A stretch of DNA of 34,173 nucleotides from the IMG/VR virus record IMGVR_UViG_3300023174_000413, positions 1 through 34,173 of that record; one strand, 5' to 3'. Both the position numbers and the translations under genes were made by a program. The stretch is from a virus. This document shows, piece by piece, positions 2,628-33,789 of this stretch. A model generated the notes under the pieces. It was not told the DNA's origin. It did no database searches and saw only the letters and a program-made list of their open reading frames with translations. Each line of letters opens with the position of its first letter. The stretch's first letter is position 1.

Positions 2628-3088
2628 GCGTACTTCACGACTATCTTTGCGCATCTCACGGCCTCTTCGAATCTTATGAGGCAGAGTGCCCTATCAAATT
2701 CTGTACAGCAGAACTCAACATGGTTTTCCTAAAACCAGTCGCTCTCAAATCAGATAAAACCAAACAGGCTGACCGTAATCTTCGCGGCCTCGCCCAAGAC
2801 TTCAAGATGTCCGACATCAAGTCCACCCGTGAAGGTGACACACAAGCCGGTTACCATCATCATCAACTCCCTGAAGAGCCAAAAGAGAGAGAACCTCGCC
2901 CAGGTGATGCCGCAATCTGGGGTGGCAACTTCCAGAACATCAATATGCAAGCAGCACTTGCCGGACAAGTCGCTCAGTCTGTCCGTGGAGAATCTGTTGG
3001 CGTAAACCCGAAAGATACTGGTAATCTCACGGGACCCAAAGCAGCGAGTTACATCTCTGACCATGAGAACTTGGCAATAGCACCATGA
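2624..3088 (+). CDS. Small zinc-finger-like phage protein
   Basis: A 154-residue protein. The N-terminus (DYLCASHG, then ECP and FC within the first 30 residues) has Cys/His spacing like the zinc-ribbon start of FmdB-like proteins. The middle (70-100) is rich in Lys, Glu and Pro and looks disordered; the C-terminus is Gly/Asn-rich. It starts with an ATGA overlap on the HTH gene and ends with an ATGA overlap on the portal gene, so its translation is coupled to both. The function is unknown; a packaging or portal-assembly role is inferred from position only. Confidence 0.72.
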   Translation: MSVLHDYLCASHGLFESYEAECPIKFCTAELNMVFLKPVALKSDKTKQADRNLRGLAQDFKMSDIKSTREGDTQAGYHHHQLPEEPKEREPRPGDAAIWGGNFQNINMQAALAGQVAQSVRGESVGVNPKDTGNLTGPKAASYISDHENLAIAP

Positions 3089-4683
3089 GAATTCCGAGCG
3101 AACCGGTAGAACGAGAAAACTTCTACCTAGACCTCATCCACAAGTGCAGCGTCTCCATGCCGGAACGCCGCACCGACTACGGAGGTCTTCGCTCGTGGTA
3201 TCTCTTTGGGAACGGACCGGACGAAGCACCGGCCATGTACAACAAGATCTTTCCCCACATAGATCAGTTGTCATCCTTCCTCTACTCTGCCGAGACCACC
3301 CGATTCTCCATAGACTTGGGTGCGGCAGTACCAGATGAAGAGCAGGCCAAGCTCCCAGTCCTCACCCGCGCACTCAACGATGAATGGCTAAACAGCAATG
3401 CTGACCAAGTATTCTCGACAGCGGTTTCATGGTCGCTGTGTTACAACAGCACCTTTATTAAACTGGTTTATAGAAACGGTATTCATCCGTATCTCGTGGA
3501 ACCGGCCAGCATCGGTGTCCTACGAGAGGACACTCCATACACCGACAGACAAGAAGCAATAATTCAGACTTACTACATCACAAAGTCTGAACTTTTCAAT
3601 CGCCTCTACAGCCACCCGCAGCGGGAAAAGATCGTAGAGCGCGTGTCGTATGTGCAGCACGAGCGCACCGAAGTTGCCAACGGCGTCCAGCGCATTATCA
3701 TGAGTCAGACGGACCCGACTCTTTACGGGAACGTCAACCTAGATCTCTCCGGCGGAAACCGCTACAAAGCCCAAGTCTCTGAGGAAACCGTCGAGATGAC
3801 GGAACTTTGGGTCTGGAACGATGAGACCGGAGACTACCAAGTGGTCACCCGCGCAGATCCAGATGTCATCATCTACGATCGTCCTGGCGAAACCGTCTTT
3901 TTGAAAGGCGAGCTGCCCTTCATCCAGATCTGCCCCCTGCCGCTCTACGATTACTACTGGGGCCAGTCAGAAGTATCCCGTCTAATCTATCTCCAGCAGA
4001 TGCGTAACAAGCGCATGACGGAGATTCTGGACATCCTGTCTAAGCAAGTCAGCCCACCTACGGCACTCATCGGGTTCACTGGAATTTTGGATGAAAAGAA
4101 CTTTGCTCTTAACCGTGCAGGCGGGATCTTGGCAACAGATATGCCAAGCGCCAAGGTTGAGAAGCTGGCCCCGCAAATGCCGCCAGATCTATTCCGTGAG
4201 ATCGGTGAAATCGACTCTATGTTTGAGGAAGCCTCTGGAATCGTCTCTGTCTTGCAAGGACGGGGGGAATCTGGTGTCCGATCATCCGGTCATGCCAGTC
4301 AACTTGCCCGTTTAGGGTCATCTCGTGCCAAAAAACGGGCGCTTGTTATCGAAGATTCGCTAGAAAAGATGGCGACTCTGTATCTCAAGCTCATGCAAGC
4401 GTATCCAAACACGCATTACACGGATACTAGGGGCAATCGGTTCATTGCCGAGCAATTGCCTAAGAATTACGCTGTAAAAGTAGATGCACACAGCAATTCA
4501 CCCATCTTCATGGAAGATTTGCGTCAATTGGCGTTCAATCTGTTCAAAGCACAAGTCATTGACAAAGAATCCTTGCTAGACTTGCTTGAACCACCCATGA
4601 AACAACAATTGAAAGACCGTCTCAAGAAGATGGAATCCGCACAAGCCCAGCAAGCAGCTATGCAACCCCCACAGGGACAATAA
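3085..4683 (+). CDS. Portal protein
   Basis: The portal forms the dodecameric DNA-entry ring at one capsid vertex. This 532-residue protein has a normal length and the expected place after terminase. Supporting stretches are the early FPHIDQLSSFLYSAETTRF segment, the YYWGQSEVSRLIYLQQMRNKR region near 290-310 (the helix-rich stem/wing portion of portals), and the conserved EASGIVSVLQGRGESGVRSSGHASQ-type region (about 380-405) preceding a long helical C-terminus. The last residues are Gln-rich. It starts by ATGA overlap with the gene before. The assignment rests on motif resemblance and gene order. Confidence 0.85.
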   Translation: MRIPSEPVERENFYLDLIHKCSVSMPERRTDYGGLRSWYLFGNGPDEAPAMYNKIFPHIDQLSSFLYSAETTRFSIDLGAAVPDEEQAKLPVLTRALNDEWLNSNADQVFSTAVSWSLCYNSTFIKLVYRNGIHPYLVEPASIGVLREDTPYTDRQEAIIQTYYITKSELFNRLYSHPQREKIVERVSYVQHERTEVANGVQRIIMSQTDPTLYGNVNLDLSGGNRYKAQVSEETVEMTELWVWNDETGDYQVVTRADPDVIIYDRPGETVFLKGELPFIQICPLPLYDYYWGQSEVSRLIYLQQMRNKRMTEILDILSKQVSPPTALIGFTGILDEKNFALNRAGGILATDMPSAKVEKLAPQMPPDLFREIGEIDSMFEEASGIVSVLQGRGESGVRSSGHASQLARLGSSRAKKRALVIEDSLEKMATLYLKLMQAYPNTHYTDTRGNRFIAEQLPKNYAVKVDAHSNSPIFMEDLRQLAFNLFKAQVIDKESLLDLLEPPMKQQLKDRLKKMESAQAQQAAMQPPQGQ

Positions 4684-4847
4684 TGGTTACTCAAGGCTAC
4701 ACAAAGACCGGGGATCAACCCCGCGTCACTGCAAAAAGTCTAGATGCAAGACAAACAACTCCATCCTTGACGTACCGTACACAGACGAATAGGATGGGAA
4801 GTGCGGGTAATTCCTCCCGCATGACCCGTGACTACACACGAAGGTAA
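4683..4847 (+). CDS. Small hypothetical protein, coupled to portal
   Basis: A 54-residue ORF starting at MVTQGYTKTG and ending DYTRR. Its ATG shares one base with the portal stop (TAATG), a junction used by many genes here, which supports translation by coupling. It is rich in Thr, Arg, Ser and Gln and has no known domain. It is followed after 5 bases by the first Arg/Lys-rich micropeptide. Short length and lack of homology I can recall keep confidence moderate. Confidence 0.5.
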   Translation: MVTQGYTKTGDQPRVTAKSLDARQTTPSLTYRTQTNRMGSAGNSSRMTRDYTRR

Positions 4848-4852
4848 TTGCA

Positions 4853-4894
4853 ATGTACAAAGCAATGAAGCGCGGTCGTAAAAGCCGCAGGTAA
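4853..4894 (+). CDS. Arg/Lys-rich micropeptide 1 (13 aa)
   Basis: The ORF encodes MYKAMKRGRKSRR and is preceded by GAAGG at a ribosome-binding distance. It shares the core RGRK[S/G]R with the second micropeptide at 4962, and the two coding sequences share GGTCGTAAA, so they look like diverged duplicates. Such a charged tail could bind DNA, RNA or the acidic face of a capsid protein; this is inference. It is below the size any gene caller would report, so expression is unproven. Confidence 0.45.
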   Translation: MYKAMKRGRKSRR

Positions 4895-4961
4895 GTTTTA
4901 AAGAGTTTGATGGGTATGGCTGCTTGCCCTTCTCAAGTGGCCCCGCAACCAGGAGATCGTC

Positions 4962-4994
4962 ATGGCACGTCGTGGTCGTAAAGGTCGGAAGTAA
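4962..4994 (+). CDS. Arg/Lys-rich micropeptide 2 (10 aa)
   Basis: The ORF encodes MARRGRKGRK, with a strong ribosome-binding site AGGAG seven bases before the ATG. It is similar to micropeptide 1 at both peptide and DNA level. A good Shine-Dalgarno in front of a ten-codon basic ORF is not expected by chance, yet a leader-peptide or remnant explanation is possible. Function is unknown. Confidence 0.45.
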   Translation: MARRGRKGRK

Positions 4995-5051
4995 TCCGAA
5001 CGTAACAGGTTTTTGAACCGGCCTGCGGGAGGTGGGCGATGAGCCTCCCAC

Positions 5052-5078
5052 TTGACTTAAATTGTAATTAGGTATAAA
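5052..5078 (+). promoter_or_regulatory. Candidate sigma70-like promoter
   Basis: TTGACT (5052-5057) and TATAAA (5073-5078) are separated by 15 bases, a close match to consensus hexamers with a short spacer. It lies in the longest gene-poor gap of the late block, just before the gene starting at 5088. An inverted repeat GGGAGG...CCTCCC (about 5028-5050) lies immediately upstream and could end transcripts from the portal region. No start-site evidence exists. Confidence 0.3.
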
Positions 5079-5087
5079 AGGTCGCAC

Positions 5088-5543
5088 ATGAGCGTACCAG
5101 CAGATAAATTGATGGAGTTGATGAAAGGCGACCGTAGTGCCAATGCACCGGTTCCAACTACTCCGTCTCCGGAAGCATCGTCTCCTGAGACGCCTCCTAT
5201 GGCTTCTCCAATGTCCACTCCTGAAAAGCAGATGGGCACTCGTGAAGCGGCAATGATCAATATTTCTATTGCGCTTGATCTTCTTGACCAGTCTCTTCCG
5301 GCAGTCGGCGCAGAGTCGGATGAAGGCAAAGCAATCATGGAAGCCTCTCGCAAACTTGGTGGTTTGCTGGGCGGCAAGCGTAATGAAACTGGAGAACTCC
5401 AGCAGTCAGAGATTCTGCAAATGTTGCAGACGCTACCTAAAGCCGGTGGCATGACTCCTGAGTCCCGTGCAATTCAGTCAGCCCCGCCTCCGGGAATGAC
5501 GCCCCCTGGCGCAGGTGCGCCAAAACCCCCTGGACTAGGATAA
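5088..5543 (+). CDS. Pro-rich hypothetical virion-module protein
   Basis: A 151-residue protein in three parts: a Pro/Ser/Thr-rich low-complexity stretch (about 20-48), a helical core (50-120) with REAAMINISIALDLLDQSL, and a Gly/Pro-rich C-terminus. It sits between portal and scaffold. I do not recognise a family. The helical core with flexible flanks would suit a head-assembly accessory, but that is inferred from composition and position. Confidence 0.65.
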   Translation: MSVPADKLMELMKGDRSANAPVPTTPSPEASSPETPPMASPMSTPEKQMGTREAAMINISIALDLLDQSLPAVGAESDEGKAIMEASRKLGGLLGGKRNETGELQQSEILQMLQTLPKAGGMTPESRAIQSAPPPGMTPPGAGAPKPPGLG

Positions 5544-6301: not shown

Positions 6302-7312
6302 ATGCCTATTGGTGGCGGAATTCTACCGGCAACGGGATCAACTCAGTACACTGAGTTAACTTACGTCACTCGTAGGGCATTCATCCCGAAGCTGGTTGTA
6401 CAGCTTTATAACTCGACCCCTCTTCTCGCAGCACTGATTGCCAACAGTCAGCAAGCTAGCGGCGGTGTGTCTTCCGTAACAGTGCCCGTCCAGGGCGCTC
6501 AGTTTGTAAACGCACAGTGGTCAGACTACAGCGGCTCGTTCGCTCAACCGTCTGTCCAGCAGGGTGCCTACAACGCTGAGTTCAACCTCAAGCTGATGAT
6601 CACACCAGTCCCGTTCCTCGGGATGGAAGGTGCGGTTCAGCAGGACGCAGCAATTATCCCGCTGATCGAAGCACGGATGAACGATGCGACCAACGTGATG
6701 ATGGACGCGATGGCAACATCGTTGTACAACAACACCACAAACACCCAGCAGTTTATCGGCCTCCCAGGCGCGATTGACGATGGCACGAACCTAGTGACCT
6801 ACGGCAACATCAACCGTAACACCTACACTTGGTGGAAGTCGAAGGTCTACAACGCTGGTAACGTCAACCCAACCCGTCAGAACATCCTGCAATACATTTC
6901 TGGAACCGTGAAGAACGGCGCAGAAGTGCCTAGCTTTGGTGTTTGCGGATTCGGTACTTGGACTCTGTTGGCTCAAGACTTTGTTGGTCAAGAGCAGTAC
7001 ACCATCACCCCAGGCTCTGCCTTTGATGGTGACAACAACGGGCCACAGGCTGCGTTCCGCGCACTGATGGTTGCTGGTGTGCCGATCTATCCAGATCCGT
7101 ACTGCCCAGAAGGCGTTGTCTACTTTGTCAACACGAACTACCTGAACCTGTACATCCACGAGCAGGGTTCGTTTGTGTTTACTGGGTTTGAGTCCACTCT
7201 GCCTAACTGGCAGATTGGTTACGTCGGCGCAGTGCTGATGATTGCTGAGTTGGTTAGCACTAAACCGAAGTCTATGACTCGGGTTAGTTCTTACAACTCG
7301 CTGACTCTGTAA
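6302..7312 (+). CDS. Major capsid protein
   Basis: A 336-residue protein with the size, position and features of an HK97-fold capsid subunit: an N-arm, a central helical segment (EARMNDATNVMMDAMATSLY, about 123-142), a P-loop/A-domain portion with ALMVAGVPIYPDPYCPEG (about 258-275), and a C-terminal strand region ending in TRVSSYNSLTL. It has a near-ideal GGAGATCGTT ribosome-binding region and is followed after 10 bases by a small beta-rich protein. Codon use favours C-ending codons in its middle, as expected for a highly expressed gene. Confidence 0.88.
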   Translation: MPIGGGILPATGSTQYTELTYVTRRAFIPKLVVQLYNSTPLLAALIANSQQASGGVSSVTVPVQGAQFVNAQWSDYSGSFAQPSVQQGAYNAEFNLKLMITPVPFLGMEGAVQQDAAIIPLIEARMNDATNVMMDAMATSLYNNTTNTQQFIGLPGAIDDGTNLVTYGNINRNTYTWWKSKVYNAGNVNPTRQNILQYISGTVKNGAEVPSFGVCGFGTWTLLAQDFVGQEQYTITPGSAFDGDNNGPQAAFRALMVAGVPIYPDPYCPEGVVYFVNTNYLNLYIHEQGSFVFTGFESTLPNWQIGYVGAVLMIAELVSTKPKSMTRVSSYNSLTL

Positions 7313-24496: not shown

Positions 24497-25456
24497 ATGG
24501 CAAAAAAGCCAATCATCTCTGACCAAGAGTTTCTTGAGTTATGGGAGCAGCACAACAGTGCCATAAAGGTTGCAAGAATAGTAGGCATCTCTGAACGACA
24601 CGCTCACACCAAAAGGCGACAAATCGAAGGAAGGCTGAAGGTAGAACTCACCAGCAATGGATTGCAGCCACACGTCCAGAAAGCAAGGCACTATGCCGGT
24701 CTTACAGACGGGATAGCCCTAGTCTTCTCAGACGCACACTTCTGGCCTGGGATCAGAACGACTGCTTTCAAGGGCTTGCTATGGGCGATAAGCACCCTTA
24801 AACCGCACGTTGTAGTTGCCAACGGCGATATCTTTGATGGTGCAGCTATATCTAGATTTCCACGCATAGGGTGGACGCATAGGCCAAACGTGAAGCAGGA
24901 GTTAGATGCATGCCAAGAGGCTATGAGGGAGATCGAAGAGGCTTGTAACAAGGCAAGACACCATACTCAACTGGTGTGGCCGATAGGGAACCACGATAGC
25001 CGTTTTGAGACCCGTTTAGCCCAGTCTGCACCAGAGTTTGAGAACGTGCAGGGTACATCTCTCAAAGATCATTTCCCGAAATGGCATCCATGCTGGAGTT
25101 GTTGGCTGTCGGACGAGGTTGTCATTAAGCATAGGTATAAAAGTGGAGTTCATGCAACACACAACAATACCGTTGGGTCAGGCACGAGCATCGTAACTGG
25201 GCACCTGCACAGTCTTAAATGCACGCCCTACGGAGATTACCGGGGAACCCGTTGGGGGGTCGATACCGGAACATTGGCAGAGATAGATGGTCCCCAGTTC
25301 TTGGATTATTTGGAAGACAGTCCAGTCAACTGGCGGTCTGGCTTTGCTGTCCTGACCATGAAAGACAACAAATTGTTGTGGCCTGAGTTGGTCAGCAAAC
25401 ATTCCGAGGGTATCATTGACTTTCGAGGGGCGCTCATTGATGTGAGTACGCTGTGA
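24497..25456 (+). CDS. Metallophosphoesterase with N-terminal HTH
   Basis: A 319-residue calcineurin-like phosphoesterase. The five metal-site motifs are visible in order: SDAHFW (D79/H81), NGDIFDG (D111), GNHD (N165/H166), a histidine near 219-222 (HATHN), and GHLHS (H236/H238). Residues about 8-45 read as a helix-turn-helix (NSAIKVARIVGISERHAHTKRR), so the enzyme probably has a DNA- or RNA-contacting head. The substrate is not predictable; such enzymes include nucleases and cyclic-nucleotide or protein phosphatases. It ends overlapping the next start. Confidence 0.87.
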   Translation: MAKKPIISDQEFLELWEQHNSAIKVARIVGISERHAHTKRRQIEGRLKVELTSNGLQPHVQKARHYAGLTDGIALVFSDAHFWPGIRTTAFKGLLWAISTLKPHVVVANGDIFDGAAISRFPRIGWTHRPNVKQELDACQEAMREIEEACNKARHHTQLVWPIGNHDSRFETRLAQSAPEFENVQGTSLKDHFPKWHPCWSCWLSDEVVIKHRYKSGVHATHNNTVGSGTSIVTGHLHSLKCTPYGDYRGTRWGVDTGTLAEIDGPQFLDYLEDSPVNWRSGFAVLTMKDNKLLWPELVSKHSEGIIDFRGALIDVSTL

Positions 25457-25674
25457 AGAAGTTTCCAAATTTAAGTGTTGGCAGGGGTGAGAAGTTGCCT
25501 GCCAGCAGAGGTGCTGGACTGACTGCCAAGGGTAGAGCTAAGGCTCGTGCTGCGGGATCTAACCTACAAGCCCCTACCAAGTCAGGACCGCGCCACAAAA
25601 GTTTCTGTGCAAGAAGTGCCGGGTGGACCGGCGAAAGAGGAAAAGCCGCAAGGAGGCGCTGGGGATGTCGTTAG
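25453..25674 (+). CDS. DUF6321-like small basic protein
   Basis: A 73-residue basic protein. The pattern KLPASRGAGLTAKGRAKARAAGSNLQAP followed by HKSFCARSAG and a C-terminal RRWGC is the family I recall as DUF6321, small Lys/Gly-rich proteins found in many phages, including cyanophages. The motif quoted here spans residues about 14-42 and 47-73. The start is a GTG sharing bases with the preceding TGA. The end overlaps the methyltransferase start by 10 bases. Function is unknown. Confidence 0.75.
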   Translation: MKKFPNLSVGRGEKLPASRGAGLTAKGRAKARAAGSNLQAPTKSGPRHKSFCARSAGWTGERGKAARRRWGCR

Positions 25675-33018: not shown

Positions 33019-33699
33019 TTATGCTGCTAGTGCAATTGGTATCACACGACGCGCAACAGCATCGGCTTTCTTCGCACGAGTACCGTGTGCCAGAAAACCT
33101 ACGATTACCTTACGATTGGCACGCTGGCACAATTTGCACGAGTAGCACGTCACATCCTCGCGAGTCTGTGCAGGACACACGACGATAGGCCTACCCTGTG
33201 GTGTGGTAGTGCGTTCTGGTGTGTCTAGTGGCACGACGACAGCAACAGGTAAGCCGTGTGCAGCAAGAGTGTCAGCGTGTCCAGCATCATCCGCCGATAG
33301 GTTTACGGTAAACCCACGTTCAGTAGCGAATCTCGCAAACTTGATAGCGCGCGCACTATGCTTATGAGTGTAGGTAAACCCACGTTTCCCACGATTAGCG
33401 TGCACCAGTTTCGATACTGCAGCACCATCGATATCTTCACCAGCACCCGGTAGGTCACCAGCTACATTGAAACGCCACAACGTTTCCGGCTTTAGCTTGC
33501 GAATCTTATCCGCTACAGTTTCGAGTGTAGAACCACGCACGCTAACCTTATCCCACACCATCCTAGTATGAAAACCGGCTTCAGCGTAGCAGCTATCACG
33601 CTGACCACACGACGGTGGGCAAGTATCACGTTCAGAGTATGTTACCGGTATAGGTCCGGTCTTGACGTCGCTAGACTTAGCGACAAAGTGAATCTTCAT
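33019..33699 (-). CDS. Cys-rich DUF7227-like protein
   Basis: About 226 residues starting MKIHFVAKSSDVKTGPIPVTY, with a GAGAGAG ribosome-binding site. CPPSCGQRDSCYAE gives C27/C31/C37; WRFNVAGDLPG, RGFTYTHK, FTVNLSADD, VVVPLD and a C-terminal CPAQ...CYSCKLC cluster follow. This is the layout of a phage/plasmid family I recall as DUF7227. The Cys clusters suggest a metal or Fe-S site, but no reaction is known. A longer frame from 33768 adds 23 residues without support. It is likely an early gene. Confidence 0.78.
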   Translation of the reverse strand: MKIHFVAKSSDVKTGPIPVTYSERDTCPPSCGQRDSCYAEAGFHTRMVWDKVSVRGSTLETVADKIRKLKPETLWRFNVAGDLPGAGEDIDGAAVSKLVHANRGKRGFTYTHKHSARAIKFARFATERGFTVNLSADDAGHADTLAAHGLPVAVVVPLDTPERTTTPQGRPIVVCPAQTREDVTCYSCKLCQRANRKVIVGFLAHGTRAKKADAVARRVIPIALAA

Positions 33700-33789
33700 A
33701 ATGCTCTCTCTCTTGATATGATTAAATGCGATACCGGAACAGTGTCCGACACTACCGACTGTTGCCAATCGGTAGTATTTGAAACTGTC

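Follow-up and report, generated by a model that had tools for sequence, protein, structure and literature searches.

The internal proteins of bacteriophage T4 are small basic products tied to the head genes, and they are processed by the prohead protease. In the lambda-type N proteins an arginine-rich motif forms a segment of a longer protein that also carries an antitermination domain. Viral protamine-like proteins, i.e., baculovirus P6.9, WSSV VP15 and the adenovirus core proteins, are very small and Arg-rich, come from dsDNA viruses, and have almost no hydrophobic or acidic residues. The composition of P6.9 is 40% Arg, 31% Ser/Thr, 13% Tyr and 9% Gly (PMC5899202). T4 gene 32 is under autogenous translational control, in which a nucleic-acid-binding protein, gp32, represses its own mRNA (PMC535899). 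Small phage genes have been predicted in metagenomes (Fremin et al., 2022, in the account of that work given by PMC11323111), and the GMSC catalogue has predicted ORFs from 30 nt (PMC11364881). The open library was searched for small basic head proteins and for protamine-like proteins of phages; nothing specific was returned, and no paper found there describes such a family.

We have studied two very short genes in a viral DNA of 34,173 bases, the whole of which is termed the window. Micro1 (4853-4894, plus strand) encodes the 13-aa peptide MYKAMKRGRKSRR and ends with a TAA stop; it was recognized by its translation, its conservation and selection in frame. Micro2 (4962-4994, plus strand) encodes the 10-aa peptide MARRGRKGRK, with a TAA stop followed by T, and was recognized by translation and conservation. 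The preliminary description had placed two micro-ORFs between the portal and scaffold genes, each with its own ribosome-binding site and with an RGRK core in common. This is borne out. The translations are exact, and both ORFs lie between the portal gene and a scaffold-like gene. Micro1 is preceded by the Shine-Dalgarno (SD)-like sequence CGAAGG (4839-4844, plus strand; GAAGG at 4840-4844), which overlaps the end of the p54 gene and is replaced by AGGAG or AAGGAG in relatives. Micro2 is preceded by AGGAG (4951-4955, plus strand), 6 nt before the ATG and conserved in the alignment. The common C-terminal consensus of the two peptides is [KR][RK]GRKxR[RK]. Similarity of the two ORFs at the DNA level, also claimed, proved only partly right, in that synonymous positions differ freely. 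The p54 gene, the pseudoknot between the two ORFs, the range of copy numbers among relatives and the greater constancy of micro2, all described below, had escaped that description. Using as criteria an ATG start, an SD matching at no fewer than 4 of 6 positions, a length of 8-25 codons and a K/R content of 50% or more, micro1 and micro2 are the sole ORFs to qualify on both strands of the whole window.

The order of the head module in the window is terminase, portal, p54, micro1, micro2, scaffold-like gene, a 60-aa gene (p60), a 176-aa gene and MCP. The terminase gene lies at 7-1482. The portal gene (3085-4683, plus strand; Pfam SU10_portal, 41.5 bits; PHROG portal) was the flank used for unbiased retrieval of relatives. 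The scaffold-like gene p151 (5088-5543, plus strand) encodes an acidic protein of 151 aa with a pI of 4.9, and its position is conserved in relatives; a scaffold-like role is suggested by that position. The MCP gene (6302-7312, plus strand) matches the PHROG major head protein with E 2.9e-35, and its product has a K+R content of 4.2% and a pI of 4.8. The portal protein is likewise acidic. Between the portal gene and micro1, p54 (4683-4847, plus strand) is an unannotated basic gene of 54 aa with a pI of 11.3. Homologues identified by tblastn occupy the same place in most close loci, and their C-terminus is often DYARR or DYTRR. Pfam and PHROG searches gave no known protein family for p54, p151 or p60. 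Elsewhere in the window, 25453-25674 encodes a small basic protein that matches DUF6321 (Pfam E 9e-8), a family without assigned function and a further case of a basic phage product, and 33019-33768 on the minus strand encodes a DUF7227/GP88-like protein (Pfam E 1e-74).

Is the pair of micro-ORFs retained in related phages? Relatives were fetched by the portal protein alone, giving 80 IMG/VR loci, to which two GenBank Manatee Spring genomes were added via tblastn. A second close set of IMG/VR loci was fetched using the portal of MW202753. The preliminary description had named relatives devoid of such an ORF as the observation that would count against it; in all of the ~170 portal-found contigs, with portal identity down to ~26-33%, the portal-MCP interval contains one such gene or more, although the loci compared are phylogenetically non-independent. 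In the first close set, every locus with a complete portal-to-scaffold interval has both ORFs at near-equal distances, each with an SD. Micro1 has 12-14 and micro2 10-13 residues there, or more if alternative starts are used. The set obtained with the MW202753 portal gives the same picture. At least one micro-ORF is found in 128 of 128 close portal-found loci having 500 nt or more of downstream sequence; by a stricter count of the same loci, there are two in 107 and one in 21. Micro2 is the nearly constant copy, found in every close relative whose interval is complete, and micro1 has been lost in some clades (e.g., L270, L201 and L197). Three copies are found in L182, L189 and L107, so that the copy number ranges from 1 to 3, and each copy has its own SD. 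The conservation in relatives upholds the earlier view that these are genuine tandem or duplicated SD-led genes for basic micropeptides.

At ~33% portal identity, all 10 loci contain one basic ORF of 13-15 aa directly before the scaffold-like gene, with peptides that include METLRYRRGRKHRRK and MITRNRRKGRKHRK. Two further portal searches revealed the gene in the sense orientation in 35 of 36 loci with downstream sequence. The exception, L464, contains an intact MARKRKHRRGRRR at 1762-1721 on the minus strand with a perfect AGGAGG, inverted relative to the portal and capsid genes. In this orientation the gene cannot serve the capsid genes of L464 as a leader in cis, and it follows that its working does not depend on which way the capsid operon points. 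The inverted gene is followed by a terminator-like GC hairpin and a T-rich tail. Within a clade the R/K order is strictly maintained, and so is the central G. The central G is often S, T, A or N in micro1. Between distant clades the order of residues varies (GRKH, GKRKH, GGRKH, GRRSK and KGMRKSK), while charge and length persist, as expected of a polycation.

The distribution of the peptides was also examined by pattern scans of IMG/VR. Codons for RKGRKxRK followed by a stop occur in at least 119 places, and among the matches listed all except L123 are micro-ORFs of 10-22 aa; the L123 match is the terminal part of a longer ORF that has no ATG. A portal gene lies directly upstream in 107 of the matches listed, and in the other micro-ORFs listed an MCP is present, the contig being truncated or the gap longer (L130). 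For KRGRKTRR-stop, 49 of 49 examined matches are in the portal-MCP locus. RRGRKHRR gave 74 matches, of which the micro-ORFs of 12-21 aa with an ATG and an SD are all beside homologues of head genes (portals mostly 26-41% and MCPs 36-65% identical). The remaining RRGRKHRR matches, among them a few longer ORFs with an SD, have no head genes around them and look fortuitous. As a background count, 3.77 Mb of related loci contain 444 matches to the micro-ORF criteria with both strands summed, 9 of them of another type.

INPHARED contains no phage with a close portal except two metagenomic Manatee Spring genomes, and isolates with remotely similar MCPs (Mx8, BUCT555, ppBjS10J-1 and a TM7 phage) gave no convincing candidates under looser criteria. 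In phiEco32 and SU10 the gap from the portal to the next gene is only ~10 nt. The MCP is also present on three contigs of GTDB MAGs; two of these are binned as beta-proteobacteria and the third as Saccharibacteria. The host signal from these bins is weak and contradictory, since the contigs are phage-sized or short and the bins disagree.

The comparison of synonymous and nonsynonymous changes that had been proposed earlier was carried out on the aligned cores. By pairwise counting without a tree, pN/pS in frame is 0.17 for micro1 (40 distinct cores) and 0.39 for micro2 (21 distinct cores). In the shifted frames the ratio is about 2 or more (above 2 for micro1), and the third codon positions vary most. 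Frame-specific purifying selection, together with the conserved start, SD and stop, places the micro-ORFs in a family of protein-coding genes. On this comparative evidence micro1 and micro2 are confirmed as real genes, and they are presumably translated. Micro2 has marked codon preferences: 98% of its Arg codons are CGT or CGC, compared with 47% in the late genes of the window, and 95% of its Gly codons are GGT or GGC, compared with 60%. A TAAT stop context is found for micro2 in 225 of 232 loci, compared with 8 of 28 late genes. Such codon use and stop context are features of strongly expressed genes, and suggest that micro2 is one of these.

The peptides themselves are almost wholly basic. 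In 148 distinct peptides R accounts for 34%, K for 28% and G for 9% of residues, i.e., R+K for 62%; D and E together number 9 residues in total, I, L, V, F and W 17, and Pro makes up 0.2%. This composition is protamine-like, and the place is always beside head genes, so that the earlier interpretation is supported in part; the condensation of DNA and the contact with scaffold or capsid that it proposed would be possible roles. There is no Pfam match even for members of 21 and 22 aa, these peptides being near the length limit of such searches.

The interval between micro1 and micro2 contains a further conserved element, an H-type RNA pseudoknot (4912-4942, plus strand) directly upstream of the micro2 ribosome-binding site. 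Stem 1 pairs GGG (4912-4914) with CCC (4927-4929), and stem 2 pairs GGCTGCTTG (4918-4926) with CAAGTGGCC (4934-4942). The aligned intervals have in common GGG-UNUGGCUGCUU-CCC followed by AAGUGGCC. Over 64 distinct sequences 88.5% of the pairs are standard, and 79 cells are changed on both sides compared with a mean of 22 after shuffling. The covariation score is 0.261 against 0.085 for shuffled alignments (reached in 0 of 500), and slid registers are all far worse. Stem 1 occurs as AGGG/CCCU, CGGG/CCCG, GAGG/CCUC and CCGG/CCGG, and stem 2 as GGCUGCUU/AAGUGGCC, GGCUGACUU/AAGUUGGCC and GGCUGCAUU/AAUGUGGCC; one group of sequences, with stem 2 GGCUUCCUU/AAGGUCGCC, has an internal mismatch of two pairs. 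The window matches the pseudoknot model with E 1.6e-6, being one of its training sequences. A search with the stem 2 model matches the MAG loci and, weakly, a site upstream of the first micropeptide gene in L104 (portal 50%). This model gave no pseudoknot match in the distant clades, where the peptide persists. The pattern of matches indicates that the pseudoknot belongs to the leader of the micropeptide gene in one large clade. Rfam 15 gave only a below-threshold match of 14 bits (E 1.9) in the window and none at this place in seven relatives. Minimum free energy folding of 4895-5100 is unremarkable (z -1.5), as the program is unable to form pseudoknots. A role in -1 frameshifting was considered and set aside, there being no ORF that reads into the pseudoknot in the conserved arrangement. 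The pseudoknot is shown by its covariation, and it would add a regulatory dimension to the micropeptide genes.

Downstream of micro2 and before the scaffold-like gene lies a hairpin with the stem GGGAGG/CCTCCC (5027-5049, plus strand); in the alignment its stem sequence differs between relatives and the pairing recurs. By consensus matching, distant clades have a terminator-like hairpin and a T-rich tail after the gene (L331, L329, L334 and L316), L330 has a promoter-like site before the micropeptide gene, and TTGACA-like sequences precede the scaffold-like gene in relatives. In relatives such as L024, L051 and L064 a TTGACA-like hexamer is followed by the inverted repeat GTTTGTAA-GTGG-TTACAAAC directly before the scaffold-like gene. 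This is possibly a promoter with an operator; the window sequence differs there. L051 also contains a tRNA-like gene upstream (253-324; Rfam tRNA, 60.9 bits). A second basic micro-ORF of the type MRGRKxKRKGRRGY, with an SD of 5/6, was seen in the scaffold region of L288 (3548-3586), L290 (7867-7911), L292 (7834-7878) and L293 (8280-8330). In L288, L290 and L292 it lies inside a 202-aa gene in another frame, and it may reflect overlapping coding or simply result from conservation of the scaffold.

What do the peptides do? The explanation that we favour, with confidence that is evenly balanced, is that they are trans-acting polycations in head assembly or DNA packaging, protamine-like in character, with the translation of micro2 probably tuned by the pseudoknot. 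Micro1 and micro2 would belong to a family of ultra-short polycationic phage genes that extends through the whole lineage, and would be translated independently and at a high level. Made together with the portal, scaffold and capsid proteins, the peptides could serve as counter-ions of head morphogenesis, acting in trans on the packaged DNA, on the acidic head proteins (p151, MCP and portal), or on both. In the clade of the window the pseudoknot would set the level of micro2 translation from its place just upstream of the ribosome-binding site, possibly with feedback by the peptide itself. Universal retention beside the head genes, the expression signals, variation of dosage, independence of orientation and extreme basicity with no other features are together explained with the fewest assumptions by a trans-acting polycation. 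The MCPs of carriers contain 3.6-6.4% K+R, compared with 8.1-11.1% in seven non-carrier phage MCPs; we give this little weight because the carrier MCPs are also poor in D/E, i.e., low in total charge, and the comparison is a single phylogenetic contrast. Three considerations speak against a simple counter-ion. The strict R/K order and central G within a clade exceed what bulk neutralization needs, the peptides at plausible copy numbers could neutralize no more than a modest part of the charge of the genome, and a pseudoknot leader suggests regulation for which a counter-ion has no need.

It is the strict order of residues, together with the pseudoknot, that points to specific nucleic-acid recognition, and an RNA-binding or self-regulating role is thus the main rival. 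The peptide would be a free-standing arginine-rich motif that binds the pseudoknot leader or the adjacent terminator, and by this binding regulates either translation or termination between the portal operon and the capsid operon. The pseudoknot before the first micropeptide gene of L104, the terminator-like hairpins of distant clades and the phage precedent of T4 gp32 are all in keeping with such a regulator. Against this, the peptide persists in distant clades that the pseudoknot model does not match, the inverted gene of L464 is unable to regulate the capsid operon in cis, and the expression signals suggest more product than regulators normally need. We regard this as a serious but rather unlikely explanation. 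Roles in head assembly and in RNA binding may also coexist, by analogy with gp32 (PMC535899).

A host-directed function is less probable still. Here the micropeptide would act late in infection on a host target that is universal, either a nucleic acid or a machine (ribosome, RNA polymerase or nucleoid), its gene merely lying in the head operon, and the persistence of this type of peptide among phages with portals only about 26-33% identical would be accounted for. However, the pattern scans never place short SD-led micro-ORFs of this kind outside the portal-MCP interval, and invariant linkage to head genes is atypical of host-takeover genes. We consider it quite improbable that the ORFs are cis-acting leader peptides, where translation of a polybasic stretch controls the scaffold and capsid genes by stalling or attenuation and the peptide itself is irrelevant. 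The geometry, a short ORF with a hairpin or terminator behind it and the next operon beyond, does resemble that of an attenuator, but the Arg codons are frequent rather than rare, the stop context is strong, synonymous codons drift freely, the copy number varies and the L464 gene is on the opposite strand. The common codons, strong stop and inverted copy also take these genes outside the definition of the attenuator or leader-peptide class. Chance ORFs, or a conserved non-coding DNA or RNA element whose translation gives basic peptides by accident, can be dismissed: low-complexity Arg/Lys-rich short ORFs are easily over-read, but the frame-specific substitution pattern and background counts refute this reading, as do retention in all portal-found loci, the conserved start, SD and stop, and the intact inversion in L464.

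Returning to the trans-acting polycation, a bolder form is that heads of this lineage are packaged or assembled with polycations of 10-17 residues, the shortest viral protamine-like genes, and that recognition of the pseudoknot by the peptide gives feedback in one large clade. This we put forward tentatively, as the less probable outcome. Should the peptides prove to be part of the virion, they would be an equivalent of viral protamines encoded by tailed phages themselves, and the view that ions and polyamines alone handle the charge of phage DNA would have to be revised. These genes are among the shortest for which selection has been demonstrated by comparative sequence alone. Their presence seems to be universal in a lineage of environmental phages that is diverse and without a cultured member in INPHARED, and annotation misses them because they are too short. 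As the preliminary description had anticipated for standard gene callers, both GenBank relatives leave the micro-ORFs unannotated; the records show instead hypothetical ORFs on the antisense strand, which overlap the place or adjoin it and are unsupported. The pseudoknot and micropeptide would constitute a compact RNA-peptide pair that is directly testable.

How do the micropeptides compare with the known systems? They belong to the same discovery class as the predictions of Fremin et al. and GMSC, i.e., conserved small ORFs in uncultured phages, and the raw ORFs may be present in smORF catalogues whose length cut-off is low (PMC11364881). AT-hook peptides were considered and rejected, given the lack of an R-G-R-P core, the scarcity of Pro, the frequent replacement of the central G in micro1 and the absence of a Pfam match. 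Like the T4 internal proteins the micropeptides are small, basic and linked to head genes, although those proteins are larger and processed by a protease, whereas here the mature size is encoded directly. They have the length and charge of the RNA-binding segment in lambda-type N, with a conserved RNA structure nearby, but in the micropeptides the basic segment is the whole protein. With T4 gene 32 (PMC535899) the clade of the window shares a pseudoknot upstream of the ribosome-binding site and a putative nucleic-acid-binding product; the micropeptide is unrelated, the feedback is only proposed, and distant clades do not match the pseudoknot model. Compared with the viral protamine-like proteins, the micropeptides, known here from their sequences, have only 10-17 residues, Lys is as important as Arg, the phage DNA is packaged by a motor, and homology to a known protamine-like family is lacking. 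Like those proteins they are nonetheless very small, rich in Arg and encoded by a dsDNA virus, and they share the near absence of hydrophobic and acidic residues that characterizes protamine-like composition.
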